DNA from: Modicisalibacter tunisiensis
Lineage (GTDB): Bacteria > Pseudomonadota > Gammaproteobacteria > Pseudomonadales > Halomonadaceae
DNA length: 64,000 bases
Direction: 5' to 3'
Assembly: GCF_020148005.1 (NCBI RefSeq)
Contig: NZ_JAGXFD010000001.1
Coordinates: 1,331,337-1,395,336 of the forward strand
The notes under the pieces were generated by a model, which worked only from the letters and a program-made list of their open reading frames with translations, searched no databases and was not told where the DNA came from. The position numbers and the translations under genes were made by a program. Positions 24,849-30,804 of this stretch are shown here, piece after piece. Position 1 is the first letter of the stretch. Every line of letters begins with the position of its first letter.

Positions 24849-25835
24849 TCAGTCGTGCCGAGCGTGCCAGGCGGCCTCGTTGACCAGACTGATCGGTCGC
24901 TCGCCACGCAGCGCCCGGGCGATGTTGTCGACCGCCCGCTGGGCCATGGCGTCGCGGGTCTCGACGGTCGCCGAGCCAATGTGCGGCAGCGCGACCACGT
25001 TGGCCATCCGCGGCAGCGGCGAATCGGCCGGCAGCGGCTCCTGCGCGAAGACGTCCAGGCCCGCGGCGCGAATCTCGCCGGCCTCGAGGGCGGCGATCAG
25101 TGCCGGCTCGTCGACCACCTTGCCGCGGGCGATGTTGACGAAGATCGCGCTCGGCTTCATGCGCGCGAACTGCGCGGCGCCGAACAGGTGGGTGGTCTCG
25201 GCGGTCAGCGGCACGGTGACGCAGACGAAGTCGGCCTCGGCGAGCAGTTCGTCGAGCTCGCGGCGCCGGGCGCCGAGTTCGCGTTCCAGCTCGGGCTTGG
25301 GCGAGGCGTTGGAGTAGAGCACCGGCATGCCGAAGCCCAGGGCGCCGCGACGCGCCACGGCGGCGCCGATGCGTCCCAGGCCGACCATGCCCAGGGTCTT
25401 GCCATGCACGTCGCTGCCGAACTGCGCCTCGCCGATACTCGCCTGCCAGTCGCCGCGCCTGACGAAGTCGGCCAGCTCCACGACCCGTCGGGCGGTGGCC
25501 ATGATCAGCGCGAAGCCGGTGTCGGCGGTGGTCTCGGTGAGCACGTCCGGGGTGTTGCACAGCAGGATGTCGCGACGGGTCAGCTCGTCGATCGGGTAGT
25601 TGTCGACGCCCACCGAGATGCTGGCGATGGCTTCCAGGTGCGGGGCGTCGTCGAGCAGCGCCGGGGTGATCGGCAGGCCGGCGCCGACCAGCCCGTGGGC
25701 CTCGCGCAGCGCCTCGCGGAAGGCCGGGTCGTCGGGCGAGTCGAGCTCGGGGAAGTAGTCGACGCGGAAGTGCTCGCTGAGCTGTTCCAGGTGGTGCTGC
25801 TTGAGACGGCGAAAGGCGGTGATGCGTTTCTTCAT
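24849..25835 (-). CDS. 2-hydroxyacid dehydrogenase, 2-ketogluconate/glyoxylate reductase type (KguD/GhrB-like)
   Basis: 328 residues. The NAD(P) Rossmann motif GLGRIGAAVARRGALGFGM is at about 150-170, catalytic Arg in VNIARGKVV, Glu in DVFAQEPLP and His in LPHIGSATVETRDAM. The stretch ISVGVDNYPIDELTRRDI and LTETTADTGFALIMATARR are typical of the GhrB/TkrA/KguD group, which reduces 2-ketogluconate (or its 6-phosphate), hydroxypyruvate or glyoxylate. Placement two genes from a ketogluconate-type kinase favours a role in ketogluconate use, as with Pseudomonas kguK-kguD, but that is inference. GGAG lies five bases before the ATG. Confidence 0.88.
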   Translation of the reverse strand: MKKRITAFRRLKQHHLEQLSEHFRVDYFPELDSPDDPAFREALREAHGLVGAGLPITPALLDDAPHLEAIASISVGVDNYPIDELTRRDILLCNTPDVLTETTADTGFALIMATARRVVELADFVRRGDWQASIGEAQFGSDVHGKTLGMVGLGRIGAAVARRGALGFGMPVLYSNASPKPELERELGARRRELDELLAEADFVCVTVPLTAETTHLFGAAQFARMKPSAIFVNIARGKVVDEPALIAALEAGEIRAAGLDVFAQEPLPADSPLPRMANVVALPHIGSATVETRDAMAQRAVDNIARALRGERPISLVNEAAWHARHD

Positions 25836-25973
25836 GATGGCTCCGGGTATGGGGTCGGGAGGGGCATTCACGCCGGTGTCGGCAGTGTGGCCGCCGGGCG
25901 GCGCCCCGGCATGCCCTTCAGGGTATCGCATGTTCCGTGTCTGCCGCGCCCGCCCTGTTGCCGGTGGCCGATG

Positions 25974-26002
25974 GCCTGTCGCCTGCCGGGCAGGCGACAG
26001 GC
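25974..26002 (-). terminator. strong hairpin after the 57-residue gene
   Basis: Twelve-base perfect stem (GCCTGTCGCCTG with CAGGCGACAGGC, five-base loop) beginning six bases after the stop codon of the small leftward gene. There is no T-tract. It separates that gene from the reductase gene downstream. Confidence 0.6.
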
Positions 26003-26007
26003 GGGTC

Positions 26008-26181
26008 TCAGGCCTCGACGTCGATGTTATGCCCCAGGGCCCCCTGGGGACGCGGGCTGCGCTGAACACCGTCGTCCTGGTCGCCGTCGTTGTCGGGCCT
26101 GGCGGCCGGCTGGGGCTGGGATGCCGCCTGAGCCTGAGCCGCCTGCTGGAGGAGCGCGTGATTGGCTGCGTTGATATTCAT
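26008..26181 (-). CDS. small hypothetical protein, 57 residues, Gln/Ala then Asp/Pro-rich
   Basis: The protein starts MNINAANHALLQQAAQAQ, continues with a Pro/Gln segment, an acidic DNDGDQDDG patch near residue 31-39, and ends LGHNIDVEA. It has no signal peptide or membrane helix and looks largely disordered after an N-terminal helix. Evidence for a real gene: an AGGA ribosome site eight to nine bases before the ATG, a strong hairpin directly after the stop, and its place in an otherwise empty gap between two related sugar genes. The short ending LGxxIDVxA resembles conserved tails of small proteobacterial proteins, but I cannot name a family. Confidence 0.6.
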   Translation of the reverse strand: MNINAANHALLQQAAQAQAASQPQPAARPDNDGDQDDGVQRSPRPQGALGHNIDVEA

Positions 26182-26199
26182 GAGACTTGTCCTGTGTTG

Positions 26200-26275
26200 C
26201 GTCGTGAATGTTGGCGTTGCCGCCGCCCCTGAGCGTGCTCGTCTTGTCTTAACGCAACATTAGACGTCGTGAATG
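26200..26275. repeat. pair of 11-base direct repeats upstream of the small gene
   Basis: CGTCGTGAATG occurs at 26200-26210 and again at 26265-26275, 65 bases apart (start to start), both in the region upstream of the 57-residue gene. They could be regulator sites for that gene or chance. Confidence 0.45.
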
Positions 26276-26314
26276 GGGACGCCGCCGCCGCGGGGGCGGA
26301 TCGCCGAGGCGCCC

Positions 26315-27286
26315 TCAGTCCAGCGGCGGCAGATCGGCCTCGAGCTCGGTGAGTCGCGCGCGATGGGGCAGGCCTTCCATGTCGCCGCGGACCTGCACCG
26401 CCCGGGCGCCGATCAGGTTGCCGCGGCGTACTGCGGTGCGCGGGGAGAGGCCGTCGAGCAGGGCGCTGACCACCCCCACCGCGAAGCCGTCGCCGGCGCC
26501 TACGGTGTCGATGACCTCGGCGACCGGGAAGCCCTCGATGGTGAAGTGCTGTGTGGCATCGCGATAGTAGCCGCCTTCCGGCCCCAGCTTGATGATCACC
26601 GCCCGGGCGCCGCGATCGAGATAGAAACCGGCGATGTCGTGGGCGGAGTCCAGCCCGGTCAGCCGCCGCCCCTCGGCGAGGCCGGGCAGCACCCAGTCGG
26701 CGCGACTCGCCAGATCGTTGAGCGTATCGCGCATCTCGGCGTCGCTGCCCCACAGGCCGGGTCGCAGGTTGGGGTCGAACGAGATACCGACGCCGGCGGT
26801 GCGGGCCCGCTCGAGCATGTGGAAGGCCAGCTCGCGGGCCGAGGCCGACAGGGCCGGCGGGATGCCGGTGGCATGCAGGTGGCGGGCGGCGGCGAAGTCC
26901 ACCGCCTGCGCGTCCGCGGGCGAGAAAAAGCTGGCGGCGCTGCCGCGGCGCACGTACTCGACATGCGGATCGGAACCGTCGTCGACGCGTGCCTTGAACA
27001 CCAGGCCGGTGGCATGATCCGGATCGCGCGTCAGGTGGCGGCAGTCCAGCCCCTCGGCCTCCAGGGTACGGCGAATATAGGTGCCGAAGCTGTCGTCGCC
27101 GACCCGGCTCAGCCAGCCGACATGGAAGCCCAGCCGCGCCAGGCCGATCGCGACGTTGGTGTCGGCGCCGGCGATGCCGCGCCGGAAGCGCGCCACCTCG
27201 GCCAGGTCGCCGGGCGTCTCGGCGACGAACAGCGTCATCGCCTCGCCGAAGGTGAGAATCTCGGGAGGGGTGGGGCGGGAAGTCAT
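26315..27286 (-). CDS. PfkB-family sugar kinase, 2-ketogluconate/KDG kinase-like
   Basis: 323 residues, ribokinase fold. The N-terminal signature FGEAMTLFVAETPGDLAEV and GADTNVAIGLARLGFHVGW, the substrate segment VEYVRRGSAASFFS, HATGIPPALS, DPNLRPGLW, and the C-terminal active-site motif DTVGAGDGFAVG (catalytic Asp) are all present. Overall it resembles Pseudomonas KguK (2-ketogluconate kinase) as much as KdgK (2-keto-3-deoxygluconate kinase). A reductase gene of KguD type lies two genes downstream. GAGGA precedes the paired ATG codons at 27289 and 27286; the second has the better spacing. A palindrome at 27416-27428 may regulate it. Confidence 0.85.
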   Translation of the reverse strand: MTSRPTPPEILTFGEAMTLFVAETPGDLAEVARFRRGIAGADTNVAIGLARLGFHVGWLSRVGDDSFGTYIRRTLEAEGLDCRHLTRDPDHATGLVFKARVDDGSDPHVEYVRRGSAASFFSPADAQAVDFAAARHLHATGIPPALSASARELAFHMLERARTAGVGISFDPNLRPGLWGSDAEMRDTLNDLASRADWVLPGLAEGRRLTGLDSAHDIAGFYLDRGARAVIIKLGPEGGYYRDATQHFTIEGFPVAEVIDTVGAGDGFAVGVVSALLDGLSPRTAVRRGNLIGARAVQVRGDMEGLPHRARLTELEADLPPLD

Positions 27287-27415
27287 CATGGGTCCTCGGC
27301 GGCCGGCTGCGCTGTGTACGACCCACCGGCACGATCGGGGCCCGCTGCTGGTTCGGGCCACGGGGCGAGGGGCTGGCGTGGAGAAGCGGCGGCACGATGG
27401 CGGCGGTCGTGTGAA

Positions 27416-27428
27416 AACGCTAAGCGTT
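27416..27428. promoter_or_regulatory. palindromic operator upstream of the sugar kinase gene
   Basis: AACGCT-A-AGCGTT, a perfect dyad about 130 bases upstream of the kinase ATG. The preceding TGAAAACGCT is reminiscent of LacI-family sites. No regulator gene is adjacent. Confidence 0.45.
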
Positions 27429-27571
27429 CCCATCGTAGGTGGCGAGGCGCGAAGGCAACAATCCAGCGCCGGTTAGACATTCGTCGCATGTCGGCCCCGG
27501 CCCGGTCGGCGCGAAGCCCGGCATGCAGCGGTTTCCTGGCGATCGTCGGCAAGGCCGGTACCGCGGCTCGT

Positions 27572-27600
27572 TTGACGCCGGTCAACGGCTGACGAATAAT
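27572..27600 (+). promoter_or_regulatory. sigma-70 promoter for cstA
   Basis: TTGACG at 27572-27577, a 17-base spacer, and AATAAT at 27595-27600: five of six matches to each consensus with ideal spacing. Transcription would start near 27607, leaving a leader of about 130 bases before the cstA ATG. Confidence 0.7.
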
Positions 27601-27739: not shown

Positions 27740-29491
27740 ATGAACGCAATCTGGATCGCCGTTTTCGGCGTCGTGTGTTTCGTGATGGGCTTTCGATTCT
27801 ATTCGAAGTTCATCGCCGAACGCATCTATCGCCTCGACCCCGACTTCCAGACGCCCGCGCACACCTATCGCGACGGCGTCGACTACGTGCCCACCAACAA
27901 GTGGATCCTCTGGGGCCACCACTTCACCTCGGTGGCCGGGGCCGCGCCGATCGTCGGCCCCGCCATCGCCATCTACTGGGGCTGGCTGCCGGCCATCCTC
28001 TGGGTGGTACTGGGCACGGTCTTCGCCGCCGGCGTGCACGACTTCGGCGCCATCGTGCTGTCGAGCCGCCACAAGGGCCACTCGATCGGCACCCTGGCCA
28101 ACCGGCTCATCGGTCAGCGGGCCAAGCTGCTGTTCCTGTTCATCATTCTGATTCTGGTGCTGATGATCAACGCGGTCTTCGCGTGGGTCATCGCCAAGCT
28201 GTTCATCACCTTCCCGTCGAGCGTGCTCTCGGTGTTCATCCAGATCCCGCTGGCGGTGTGGATCGGCTATCGCGTCTATCGGCATTCGGGCTCGATGCTG
28301 CTGCCCTCGGTGGTGGCGCTGGTGGTCATGTACGGGGCGGCGCTGCTGGCCAGCGAGGTTCCCGCCCTGCAGATCGACCTGGTGAGCTGGTTCGGCGGCG
28401 CGGATGCGTCGGTCGTCGGCGGCTTCGACGGCACCTCGATGGCCTTCCTGGTGTGGATCGTGGTGCTGATGGTCTACGTCTACGTCGCCTCCACGCTGCC
28501 GGTCTGGAAGCTGCTGCAGCCGCGTGACTACATCAACTCCCACCAGCTGGTCGTCGGCCTGGCGCTGCTCTACCTGGGCCTGCTGTTCGGGGCGCCGGAC
28601 ATGACCGCGCCGGCGGTCAACGGCGAGGCCGACATCGCCTGGTACCCGCTGCTGTTCATCACCATCGCCTGCGGGGCGATCTCCGGGTTCCACGGGCTGG
28701 TCGGCTCGGGGACCACCTCCAAGCAGCTCGACAAGGAAACCGACGCCCGGCTGATCGGCTACGGCGGCGCGCTCGGCGAGGGCATGCTGGCGATGGTGGC
28801 GATCATCGCCGTGGGCACGCTGTTTGCCAGCGGCGCCGACTTCACCGCCACCTATTCCAGCTTCTCGGCGGCCGGCTCCAGCGGCCTGGGCTCGTTCGTC
28901 AAGGGTGCCGGCCAGCTGGCGGCCAACCTGGGCATTCCCACCCAGATGGGCTCGACGCTGGTGGCGGTGATCGTGGTCAGCTTCGCGGCCACCACCCTGG
29001 ACACCGCGGTGCGCCTGATGCGCTACATCATCGCCGAGCTGGGCACCGAGTACGGCATGCCGGTACTGGCCCGCAAGCACGTGGCGACCAGCATCGCCGT
29101 GGTCTCCAGCGCGGCGCTGGTGATCCTGCCGGAAGGCCCCAACGGCTTCGGCTCCGGCGGCTACCTGCTGTGGCCGCTGTTCGGTACCAGCAACCAGCTG
29201 CTGGCGGGCATCACCCTGATGCTGGTGTCGGTATGGCTCAAGCGCCAGGGGCGGCCGGTGGTCTTCACCCTGGCACCGATGCTGTTCCTGCTGGTCATGA
29301 CCCTGTGGGCCATGGGGCAGCAGGTGATCTTCACCTGGTCCGGCTTCGGGGACGCTCCGCGCAACCTGCTGCTGTTCAGCTTCGGCAGCCTGATCCTGGT
29401 CTTCACGCTGTGGATCCTGCTGGAGGCGTCGCGCAGCTTCCGTCAGGGGGCCGGCGAACGTCTGGATGCGTTGAGCGATGAGTCGCGCTGA
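27740..29491 (+). CDS. cstA: carbon starvation protein CstA-family transporter
   Basis: 583 residues with about sixteen hydrophobic helices, shorter than E. coli CstA (about 700) and nearer the short CstA forms. The N-terminus FRFYSKFIAERIYRLDPDF and PTNKWILWGHHFTSVAGAAP, GAIVLSSRHKGHSIG, and GLVGSGTTSKQLDKETDARL are diagnostic of the family. Members import peptides or pyruvate, in some cases during carbon starvation. AAGGA precedes the ATG. The 3' end overlaps the next gene by 14 bases, so this transporter, a Cys-Cys-ending small protein and an ArsA/GET3-like ATPase form one operon driven by the promoter at 27572-27600. Confidence 0.92.
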   Translation: MNAIWIAVFGVVCFVMGFRFYSKFIAERIYRLDPDFQTPAHTYRDGVDYVPTNKWILWGHHFTSVAGAAPIVGPAIAIYWGWLPAILWVVLGTVFAAGVHDFGAIVLSSRHKGHSIGTLANRLIGQRAKLLFLFIILILVLMINAVFAWVIAKLFITFPSSVLSVFIQIPLAVWIGYRVYRHSGSMLLPSVVALVVMYGAALLASEVPALQIDLVSWFGGADASVVGGFDGTSMAFLVWIVVLMVYVYVASTLPVWKLLQPRDYINSHQLVVGLALLYLGLLFGAPDMTAPAVNGEADIAWYPLLFITIACGAISGFHGLVGSGTTSKQLDKETDARLIGYGGALGEGMLAMVAIIAVGTLFASGADFTATYSSFSAAGSSGLGSFVKGAGQLAANLGIPTQMGSTLVAVIVVSFAATTLDTAVRLMRYIIAELGTEYGMPVLARKHVATSIAVVSSAALVILPEGPNGFGSGGYLLWPLFGTSNQLLAGITLMLVSVWLKRQGRPVVFTLAPMLFLLVMTLWAMGQQVIFTWSGFGDAPRNLLLFSFGSLILVFTLWILLEASRSFRQGAGERLDALSDESR

Positions 29492-29774
29492 TCGTGACGG
29501 CGACGCGCCCGCCGGCTGGCGGGCGCGGATCGGCCGGGTCATCCAGGGCTACGATGCGGTGCTGAGCCTGCCGCATCGTCAGGAGATCGCGCGCGAGCTG
29601 CAGGACGAGGAGGACCTGTTCATGTTGCTGTGCTTCTGCGACATGATGGGCATTCCCAACCCCGTCAGCGACATGACGCTCGAGCTCTACCCCTACATGC
29701 TCGAGCGGTTCCACGAGTGGCACCGGCGCCAGGGCATCCCGCGCTCGCCGCTGGACAGCTTCCGCTGCTGCTAG
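29478..29774 (+). CDS. small CC-terminal protein linked to CstA (cory-CC-star type)
   Basis: 98 residues, no signal peptide and no clear membrane helix. It ends in Cys-Cys directly before the stop codon. The central region RQEIARELQDEEDLFMLLCF and CDMMGIPNPVSDMTLEL, then YPYMLERFHEWHRRQGI, is helical and rich in acidic and aromatic residues. I recall a small-protein family named cory-CC-star found beside ArsA-type ATPases, and this fits, though I cannot verify the match. The start lies 14 bases inside the end of cstA, indicating translational coupling, and the ATPase gene follows 28 bases later. Function unknown. Confidence 0.75.
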   Translation: MSRADRDGDAPAGWRARIGRVIQGYDAVLSLPHRQEIARELQDEEDLFMLLCFCDMMGIPNPVSDMTLELYPYMLERFHEWHRRQGIPRSPLDSFRCC

Positions 29775-29802
29775 CCATTCGCCACCCGACGAGGAGTCCG
29801 AC

Positions 29803-30744
29803 ATGGCCAGAAGCCTGTTCTTCGGCGGCAAGGGCGGCGTCGGCAAGACCAGCTGCGCCACCGCCTATGCGCTGAACTGCGCGGCCGCGGGGCAGAAGAC
29901 CCTGCTGGTGTCCACCGACCCCGCCCACAACCTGGCCGATCTGTTCGGCCGGGCGCCGGGGGCCACCCCGACCCGCATGCGCCCCGACCTCGACGTGGTC
30001 GAGCTCGATCCCGACCGCGAGACACAGCGCTATCTCGATCAGGTCAAGGACACGATCCGGCCGCTGGTCAGCGGCGAGCGCAGCACCACGGTGTTCCGTC
30101 AGCTGGATCTGGCGCGTCACGCGCCGGGCACCGAGGAGGCGGCACTGTTCGACGCCCTGGTGGGGCTGTTGCTCGAGACCGGCCGGGACTACGACCGGCT
30201 GATCTTCGATACCGCCCCCGGGGGGCACACCGTGCGCCTGCTGGCGCTGCCCGAGATCATGGGCGCCTGGGTCGACGGCCTGATGCAGCGCCGGCGCAAG
30301 GTGCGCAGCGACTACAAGGCGTGGCTGGGTGATGGCGAGGTGGTCGACGACCCGATCCAGGAGGCCTTGATGCGCCGTCGCGGCCGTCTGGCCGCGGCCC
30401 GCGAGCACCTGACCTGCGGCGCGCATTCGGCGGTGGTGCTGGTCGCCAACCCCGAGCGCCTGCCGACCCTGGAGACGGCGCGCACCCGCGAGCTGCTCGA
30501 GGCCCATGGCCTGCACGTCGGCGCGCTGGTGGTCAACAAGTGCCTGCCGGAAGACGTCGACAGCACCTGGCTGACCAACTGGCGCGACGAACAGCGGCCG
30601 TGGCGCGAGCAGCTCGCCGCCACCTTCGCCGACCGGCCGGTGCTCGAGATCAGCCATCAGCCGCATGCGCCGGCGTCCTGTGACGACCTGCAACCGCTGA
30701 GCGATGCCCTGCGGGGGCTCGACCCCTGGCAGGCCCACGACTGA
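29803..30744 (+). CDS. ArsA/GET3/TRC40-family ATPase
   Basis: 313 residues. A deviant Walker A motif GGKGGVGKTS is at residues 8-17, switch I is STDPAHNLADLF, and switch II is DTAPGGHTVRLLALPE, the layout of ArsA and Get3. Four Cys occur but none in the CxxC pair that holds Get3 dimers by zinc, and no arsenite-type Cys triad is evident. It is a single-unit protein, slightly shorter than Get3. In this family ATP hydrolysis drives targeting of membrane proteins or energises transport. GAGGAG precedes the ATG. It is the last gene of the cstA operon, ended by a strong terminator, so its client is probably the small CC protein or CstA. Confidence 0.88.
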   Translation: MARSLFFGGKGGVGKTSCATAYALNCAAAGQKTLLVSTDPAHNLADLFGRAPGATPTRMRPDLDVVELDPDRETQRYLDQVKDTIRPLVSGERSTTVFRQLDLARHAPGTEEAALFDALVGLLLETGRDYDRLIFDTAPGGHTVRLLALPEIMGAWVDGLMQRRRKVRSDYKAWLGDGEVVDDPIQEALMRRRGRLAAAREHLTCGAHSAVVLVANPERLPTLETARTRELLEAHGLHVGALVVNKCLPEDVDSTWLTNWRDEQRPWREQLAATFADRPVLEISHQPHAPASCDDLQPLSDALRGLDPWQAHD

Positions 30745-30763: not shown

Positions 30764-30804
30764 AAACAGCGAGGCCCCGCCATCCGGCGGGGCCTCGCTG
30801 TTTT
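30764..30804 (+). terminator. rho-independent terminator of the cstA operon
   Basis: Perfect 18-base stem (30764-30781 with 30786-30803; AAACAGCGAGG to CCTCGCTGTTT at the ends), ATCC loop, ending in TTTT. It is the strongest terminator in the window and may also serve the convergent dehydrogenase gene. Confidence 0.92.

Follow-up and report, generated by a model that had tools for sequence, protein, structure and literature searches.

In a 64,000-nucleotide (nt) stretch of the Modicisalibacter tunisiensis genome (contig NZ_JAGXFD010000001.1; hereafter the window), three adjacent genes encode a CstA-family transporter, a small protein of the cory-CC-star type (Cory), and a single-domain ATPase of the ArsA/Get3 type. 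Comparison of this locus with its relatives gave good support for Cory and the Get3-fold ATPase as the conserved genetic partners of CstA. The operon itself is already known, being a member of the CstA-CstX-ArsA family. As the best explanation overall we favor, with a probability of about 0.5, an ATP-dependent accessory module of a proton-driven CstA in which Cory serves as the link.

The genes and the tail-coding segment of cory are as follows.

27740-29491, plus strand: cstA, encoding a CstA-family transporter of 583 aa, ATG start (open reading frame call, Pfam, NCBIfam)
29478-29774, plus strand: gene for the cory-CC-star protein, 98 aa, ending in FRCC, stop codon TAG (NCBIfam NF041419)
29766-29771, plus strand: two C-terminal Cys codons, TGC TGC, followed by the stop codon TAG (sequence read)
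29803-30744, plus strand: gene for the single-domain ArsA/Get3-type P-loop ATPase, 313 aa (TIGR00345, fold match)

Conserved linkage of cstA, cory, and the ATPase gene

One genome per species was scanned (84,980 species), and 88 loci were compared, comprising the best 80 of at least 553 confirmed Cory relatives, six loci from Pseudomonadota, and two plasmid loci; most are the nearest relatives of the window's Cory. Cory and the ATPase occur together in all 88 loci and CstA in 86, and in the other two the contig ends less than 740 and less than 200 nt before cory. All 86 complete sets show the order cstA, cory, ATPase gene on one strand. The ATPase gene of locus L070 is in two pieces, and the cstA frames of L012 and L070 are broken. 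Since order and strand are kept in every complete locus, in Pseudomonadota as well as Bacillota, the arrangement is more than chance. The three genes look like an operon, as predicted from their layout, and it is very likely that they form a functional unit. An earlier note on this DNA, made from the letters alone, had read the three genes as one unit, which these counts bear out, and had named as a danger to that reading that the small protein and the ATPase might occur mostly without cstA in related genomes. This is not the case among the near relatives, 86 of 88 of which have CstA next to the pair, but in Bacillota at large (below) adjacency falls to 8 of 12.

The link between Cory and this kind of ATPase was equally strict in a sample of Pseudomonadota, where 7 of 398 genomes, belonging to six families and counting the genome that the window comes from, gave a match to Cory and 18 of 396 gave one to the ATPase family PF02374 (E ≤ 1e-20). 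An unbroken single-domain ATPase is present in exactly the seven genomes with Cory. Ten other PF02374 genomes carry a double-domain ATPase in open frames of 579 to 600 residues, one being of 918, and two PF02374 fragments on different contigs of genome G184 were taken for a broken double-domain gene.

Cory and the ATPase as the tightest pair

Among 179 Bacillota genomes, 12 encode Cory-like proteins, two scoring over the NF041419 cut-off and ten only below it. An ATPase gene adjoins the Cory-like gene in all 12, eleven being found via PF02374 and that of G504 via a custom profile only. CstA adjoins in eight (G436, locus L077; G605, G485, G444, G530, G491, G577, and G504). In G604, G457, G501, and G481, no CstA was found in the 8 to 12 kb around the Cory-ATPase pair, and the Cory-like proteins end in WCC. 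CstA is encoded elsewhere in the genomes of G457, G501, and G481, with partial matches only in G604; as CstA is common anyway (13 of 15 genomes in all, comparison genomes included), finding it elsewhere carries little information. Cory and the ATPase are thus well supported as the tightest pair of the three, and this pair is likely to be the core of the unit.

The converse does not hold in Bacillota: ten genomes carry a single-domain ATPase without Cory, in regions (L284 to L293) where custom profiles found neither CstA nor Cory, so the kind of ATPase alone does not predict the operon there. Five genomes (G485, G444, G530, G491, and G577) have two tandem ATPase genes, and loss of the CC tail seems to go with the doubled ATPases. 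Loci L278 to L282 encode CstA, one or two CC-less Cory-like proteins, and two tandem single-domain ATPases. Loci L274 to L277 encode a WCC-ending Cory-like protein paired with the ATPase, away from CstA; at L277 a gene for an ArsR/SmtB regulator comes after the pair, and at L274 the gene preceding it gave weak, below-cut-off matches to DUF2284-type models.

Properties of the three proteins

The window's CstA passed Pfam PF02554 at 500.1 bits (gathering score, 27) and scored 253.1 bits against NF011590, the equivalog model of Escherichia coli CstA, a pyruvate/proton symporter, for which the cut-off is 1188. Falling far under that cut-off, the protein is a family member of the short kind (583 aa, against about 700 residues for the E. 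coli-type long CstA), and its substrate is not to be inferred from the name. A PDB sequence search with CstA returned no match. Pyruvate uptake by E. coli CstA is powered by the proton gradient (PMC7730263). On the family match and the published biochemistry of this relative, membership of CstA in a secondary-transporter family is well supported; it probably transports a small carboxylate (pyruvate, for example) or peptides.

The window's Cory scored 117.6 bits against NF041419 (cut-off, 80), with residues 20 to 98 aligned to positions 2 to 80 of the 80-position profile, and had no Pfam match at E 0.01. Its CC tail recurs in all 88 near-relative loci. A selenocysteine (Sec) in the tail was considered and rejected, given the 88 CC tails and locus L234, where CC is followed by TGA, TGA, which were taken as stops. 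The peak 19-residue hydropathy is 1.13 in the window's protein and 0.87 to 1.45 across 89 sequences, the usual limit for a membrane segment being 1.6, and no clear transmembrane stretch is predicted. The structure model is all helical, at a predicted local distance difference test (pLDDT) score of 60.6, too poor for a fold search. In a PDB sequence search, both Cory and YbdD, the small protein encoded beside cstA in E. coli, gave matches at chance level, and homology of Cory to ArsD was not detected.

ATPases of the Get3/ArsA superfamily are best known from membrane-protein targeting and arsenic export. The window's ATPase scored 242.6 bits against TIGR00345 (TRC40/GET3/ArsA; cut-off, 135) and 141.3 bits, under the cut-off of 650, against TIGR04291 (arsenical pump ArsA), a type that needs two ATPase domains, whereas the window's protein has one P-loop. 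Its AlphaFold2 model (pLDDT, 85.1) best matched archaeal Get3 3zq6 in the PDB (template modeling [TM] score, 0.82; E 5.5e-25), which is likewise the closest solved sequence. We aligned the window's ATPase with 87 of the 88 other ATPases (88 sequences in total), a broken one having been excluded by length. The P-loop GGKGGVGK is invariant in this alignment. Cysteine reaches at most 18 of 88 sequences in any column, 52 of the 88 proteins contain none at all, and a CXXC motif was found in none, so the zinc site of Get3 and the arsenic site of ArsA are both unconserved. The positions matching C113 and C172 of ArsA (alignment to 1f48; numbering of PMC2963123) are not Cys, C422 is absent along with the second domain, and the cysteines that the window's ATPase does have lie away from the Get3 zinc and ArsA arsenic positions. 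A client region more polar than that of Get3 was also considered and rejected, the large-hydrophobic fraction averaging 0.319 (n = 88) versus 0.311 in 3zq6.

Relation to described systems

The earlier note had regarded the three-part system as not described, which proved wrong: Castillo and Saier published CstA-CstX-ArsA operons in 2010 (PMC2963123). They listed 26 instances in which an ArsA homologue accompanies CstA and 24 with the small protein CstX, reported that CstX never occurs without CstA and that the trees run parallel, and put CstX forward as the link between the ATPase and CstA, whose transport the ATPase would energize. Their ATPases are single-domain proteins of about 330 residues, and the arsenic cysteines are unconserved in the single-domain proteins. 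Cluster 17 of that study holds 12 ATPases, including one of 313 aa from Chromohalobacter salexigens and several from Bacillota, and its nine members in the authors' database all lie alongside cstA and cstX; these organisms belong to the same groups as the window's nearest relatives. From position, size, and shared organisms, we infer that CstX is today's cory-CC-star. The operons also agree in the three kinds of gene, in a single-domain ATPase of about 300 to 340 residues, and in having no ars genes. The CstX of archaeal cluster 14 differs in having one membrane segment (PMC2963123), none being predicted for the window's Cory. In the accessible text of PMC2963123, no mention of a CC tail of CstX was seen and YbdD has 0 occurrences, and we found no experiment on the CstA-Cory-ATPase operon in the open-licence literature.

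With Get3/TRC40 (3zq6, 3ug7) the window's ATPase shares the fold, the single domain, the signature-lysine P-loop, and the DTAP motif, but CXXC is missing from all 88 aligned ATPases. The ArsA-ArsD-ArsB system resembles the operon in combining an ATPase of this superfamily with a small, often CC-ended partner and a membrane transporter; it differs in that its ATPase has two domains and carries the arsenic-binding cysteines missing here. The proteins beside two-domain ArsA, which we take to be ArsD-like by motif and place (L217, 3226-3612; L218, 4724-5101; L156 to L180), have a CC end in 6 of 9 distinct sequences and give another example of an ATPase of this superfamily accompanied by a small protein ending in CC.

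Trees of CstA, Cory, and the ATPase

The CstA tree was built from 41 proteins, and its 25 rows linked to Cory fall into a single clade (99/96). The same clade holds four partner-less rows from one family (L194, L195, L196, and L199; 100/100 together), whose genomes are not among the matches listed for Cory or PF02374. On one reading of these sequences, Cory and the ATPase would have been lost jointly and CstA kept. Halomonadaceae and Bacillota group together, apart from the other sampled Gammaproteobacteria, both for CstA (100/99) and for Cory (100/99), and the window's nearest relatives, among the best 80 of at least 553, are Halomonadaceae. This shared grouping suggests that cstA, cory, and the ATPase gene were probably transferred jointly. 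In the ATPase tree, five arsenical N-halves are set apart (100/100).

Parallel between Cory and YbdD

The gene that follows cstA on the same strand in E. coli is ybdD, which encodes a protein of 65 residues, and no ATPase gene was found alongside in the cstA neighborhood. The YbdD family (PF04328) is one that we take to be DUF466, presumably with the name KCU-star when it is Sec-ended. In the Pseudomonadota sample, 69 of 72 PF04328 matches lie at most 3 kb downstream of CstA, among the matches listed, on the same strand. Thirty of the 72 loci were examined, and a C-terminal CC is present in all 31 YbdD sequences read, E. coli included. The window's genome gave no PF04328 match. Deletion of ybdD in E. 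coli cuts pyruvate uptake about as much as deletion of cstA (PMC5847655). DUF466 proteins of some Epsilonproteobacteria end in C-Sec, which the authors take to point to redox activity (PMC4607533), and a review lists the Sec-ended forms as KCU-star (PMC13188914).

The E. coli pair thus resembles the window's operon in having a CC-ended small protein encoded just after cstA and differs in its long CstA, in the missing ATPase gene, and in that homology between YbdD and Cory was undetected. Small profiles of the two families gave a probability of 0.4%. Larger profiles gave a collinear-looking alignment with a score of 18.1 (E 0.009), which fell to 13.8 without the last three columns, a reversed profile giving 13.5. 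That score was reached in 2 of 200 all-column shuffles and in 22 of 200 with the last three columns kept, and common descent was rejected on the latter count. Given CC in both without detectable homology, two unrelated-looking CstA partners share a reactive pair, a parallel (CC/C-Sec) that we did not find in the open-licence literature. A broader idea, that CstA transporters at least twice gained a small partner with a vicinal thiol or selenol tail that would arm or gate them, the short-CstA branch having a Get3-fold ATPase dedicated to charging or placing the tail, we consider improbable.

We also inspected 30 chosen places where CstA has neither YbdD nor Cory. A CC-ended frame of 35 to 249 residues lies at eight of them, three of which overlap cstA in a different frame; on visual inspection, none of the eight looks like YbdD or Cory. 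A CstA-YbdD fusion, suggested by seven YbdD matches in frames of more than 600 residues, was rejected: in the three examined (L117, L119, and L120), CstA lies in a different frame.

Expression signals and neighboring genes

Two further features of the window bear on expression.

27572-27600, plus strand: sigma-70-like site, TTGACG-17-AATAAT, 10 of 12 consensus positions (consensus match only)
30764-30803, no strand assigned: perfect 18-nt hairpin with a 4-nt loop, arms 30764-30781 and 30786-30803 (probable terminator)

The tight packing of the genes described in the earlier note was confirmed: cory starts at 29478, inside cstA, which ends at 29491, so that the two overlap by 14 nt, and the gap between cory and the ATPase gene is 28 nt. 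The near-consensus promoter also held up, lying about 140 nt 5′ of the cstA start where shuffles of the 4.5-kb region lead one to expect 0.2 such sites. The 18-base-stem terminator stood in part. Its hairpin is perfect, and the segment 30745-30815 folds at a minimum free energy of −57.1 kcal/mol (z, −6.9), with 0 of 200 shuffles equally stable, but the T run ending the hairpin stretch is short and in part within the stem, and a simple terminator scan did not pick the hairpin up. The hairpin sits between convergent genes, and both may use it as a terminator.

Both flanks are on the opposite strand, with a pfkB-type kinase gene upstream and an aldehyde dehydrogenase gene downstream; no ars gene and no arsR was found in a scan of four flanking genes. 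Divergent from cstA, at 24849-27433 on the minus strand, lie genes for a 2-hydroxyacid dehydrogenase and the pfkB-type kinase. This pair may serve sugar-acid use leading to pyruvate, its tie to cstA being a guess.

Some related loci contain an additional gene. At L019 (6401-7672), from Salinicola peritrichatus, cory and the ATPase gene are separated by a gene read as a major facilitator superfamily efflux transporter. Some Bacillota have a fourth small gene, placed between cstA and cory, whose products share the motif DPRN and 11 invariant columns in 12 aligned sequences.

L023, 1255-1638; L032, 5591-5974; L051, 5596-5970; L061, 5587-5958: fourth small gene, Halobacillus forms
L009, 5829-6116; L029, L037, L039, L040, L044, L057, L068, L074: fourth small gene, shorter forms

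The fourth gene gave no match over cut-off (eight scanned by Pfam, six by NCBIfam). The four Halobacillus forms begin with MGCCGG(V/I)C and have an ArsD-like look; ArsD homology was not detected.

How Cory and the ATPase may serve CstA

In the mechanism that we favor, short CstA would be a secondary transporter whose uptake is driven by the proton gradient. The ATPase would act as a Get3-like homodimer with Cory as its dedicated binding partner, and Cory would dock it onto CstA at the cytosolic face. ATP binding and hydrolysis would then load, assemble, or switch CstA, setting the state, the assembly, or the amount of active transporter. For this mechanism, too, we put the probability at about 0.5. 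Where the CC tail of Cory is present, it could be the active thiol pair of the adapter, in redox or as a metal ligand, and would play the part at short CstA that the YbdD tail (CC or C-Sec) plays at long CstA; such a thiol role is possible but doubtful.

An accessory module was preferred to a pump because E. coli CstA is proton driven and there are related CstA genes with neither partner. The pump is the published proposal: Castillo and Saier (PMC2963123) prefer ATP-driven transport, in which the ATPase energizes CstA and Cory couples hydrolysis to it as ArsA does for ArsB. It was drawn from gene context and parallel trees, and the linkage kept in more genomes here and the invariant P-loop of the 88 aligned ATPases speak for it as well. 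Besides the proton-driven pyruvate uptake of the E. coli relative (PMC7730263) and the related CstA group without both partners, among the matches listed, it has against it that in 4 of the 12 Bacillota genomes the Cory-ATPase pair has no CstA next to it, and we regard it as unlikely. We hold it just as unlikely that the ATPase stays outside the transport cycle and works as a targeting chaperone, delivering Cory or helping CstA into the membrane. The modeled fold, nearest to archaeal Get3, and the nearest solved sequence, 3zq6, are consistent with such an insertion or assembly factor, but Cory lacks a clear transmembrane stretch (peak hydropathy, 1.13), E. coli cstA has no such ATPase gene alongside, and CXXC is missing from all 88 ATPases, although some true Get3 proteins are without it and the motif is not universal (PMC10248533).

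A disguised arsenic-type system for handling a metal or metalloid, with Cory as its ArsD and the ATPase as its ArsA, has in its favor the CC ends of the ArsD-like proteins beside two-domain ArsA (6 of 9 distinct sequences) and the ArsR/SmtB regulator gene that follows one CstA-less pair (L277). The score of 141.3 against the arsenical ATPase model (cut-off, 650), the absence of Cys at positions 113 and 172, the 52 of 88 ATPases without any cysteine, and a scan of four flanking genes that showed no ars gene make this very unlikely.

Several results weigh against the accessory-module account or parts of it. The Bacillota data weaken both a fixed three-part system and a universal CC tail, as the Cory-like proteins of 6 of the 12 genomes (G485, G444, G530, G491, G577, and G504) lack CC, so that the tail is not essential everywhere. 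The likeness of its role to that of YbdD does not extend to common descent, which the tail-keeping shuffles led us to reject, and the E. coli transport study never names ybdD in its accessible text (PMC7730263; 0 occurrences). On the historical side, the place of the partner-less CstA group within a 10-row branch is unsettled, the root is a midpoint root, and long branches meet, so two gains account for the tree as well as one gain and one loss; the ATPase tree agrees on the Bacillota-Halomonadaceae grouping only weakly (73/18). Interaction, transport, or ATPase activity of any member was not found reported in the open-licence literature.

Through this operon, a widespread family of nutrient transporters is tied to ATPases of the Get3/ArsA kind. 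With YbdD needed for the function of E. coli CstA in one study (PMC5847655) and, as DUF466, a selenoprotein ending in Sec in another (PMC4607533), the parallel between the two small proteins makes a shared thiol role directly testable.

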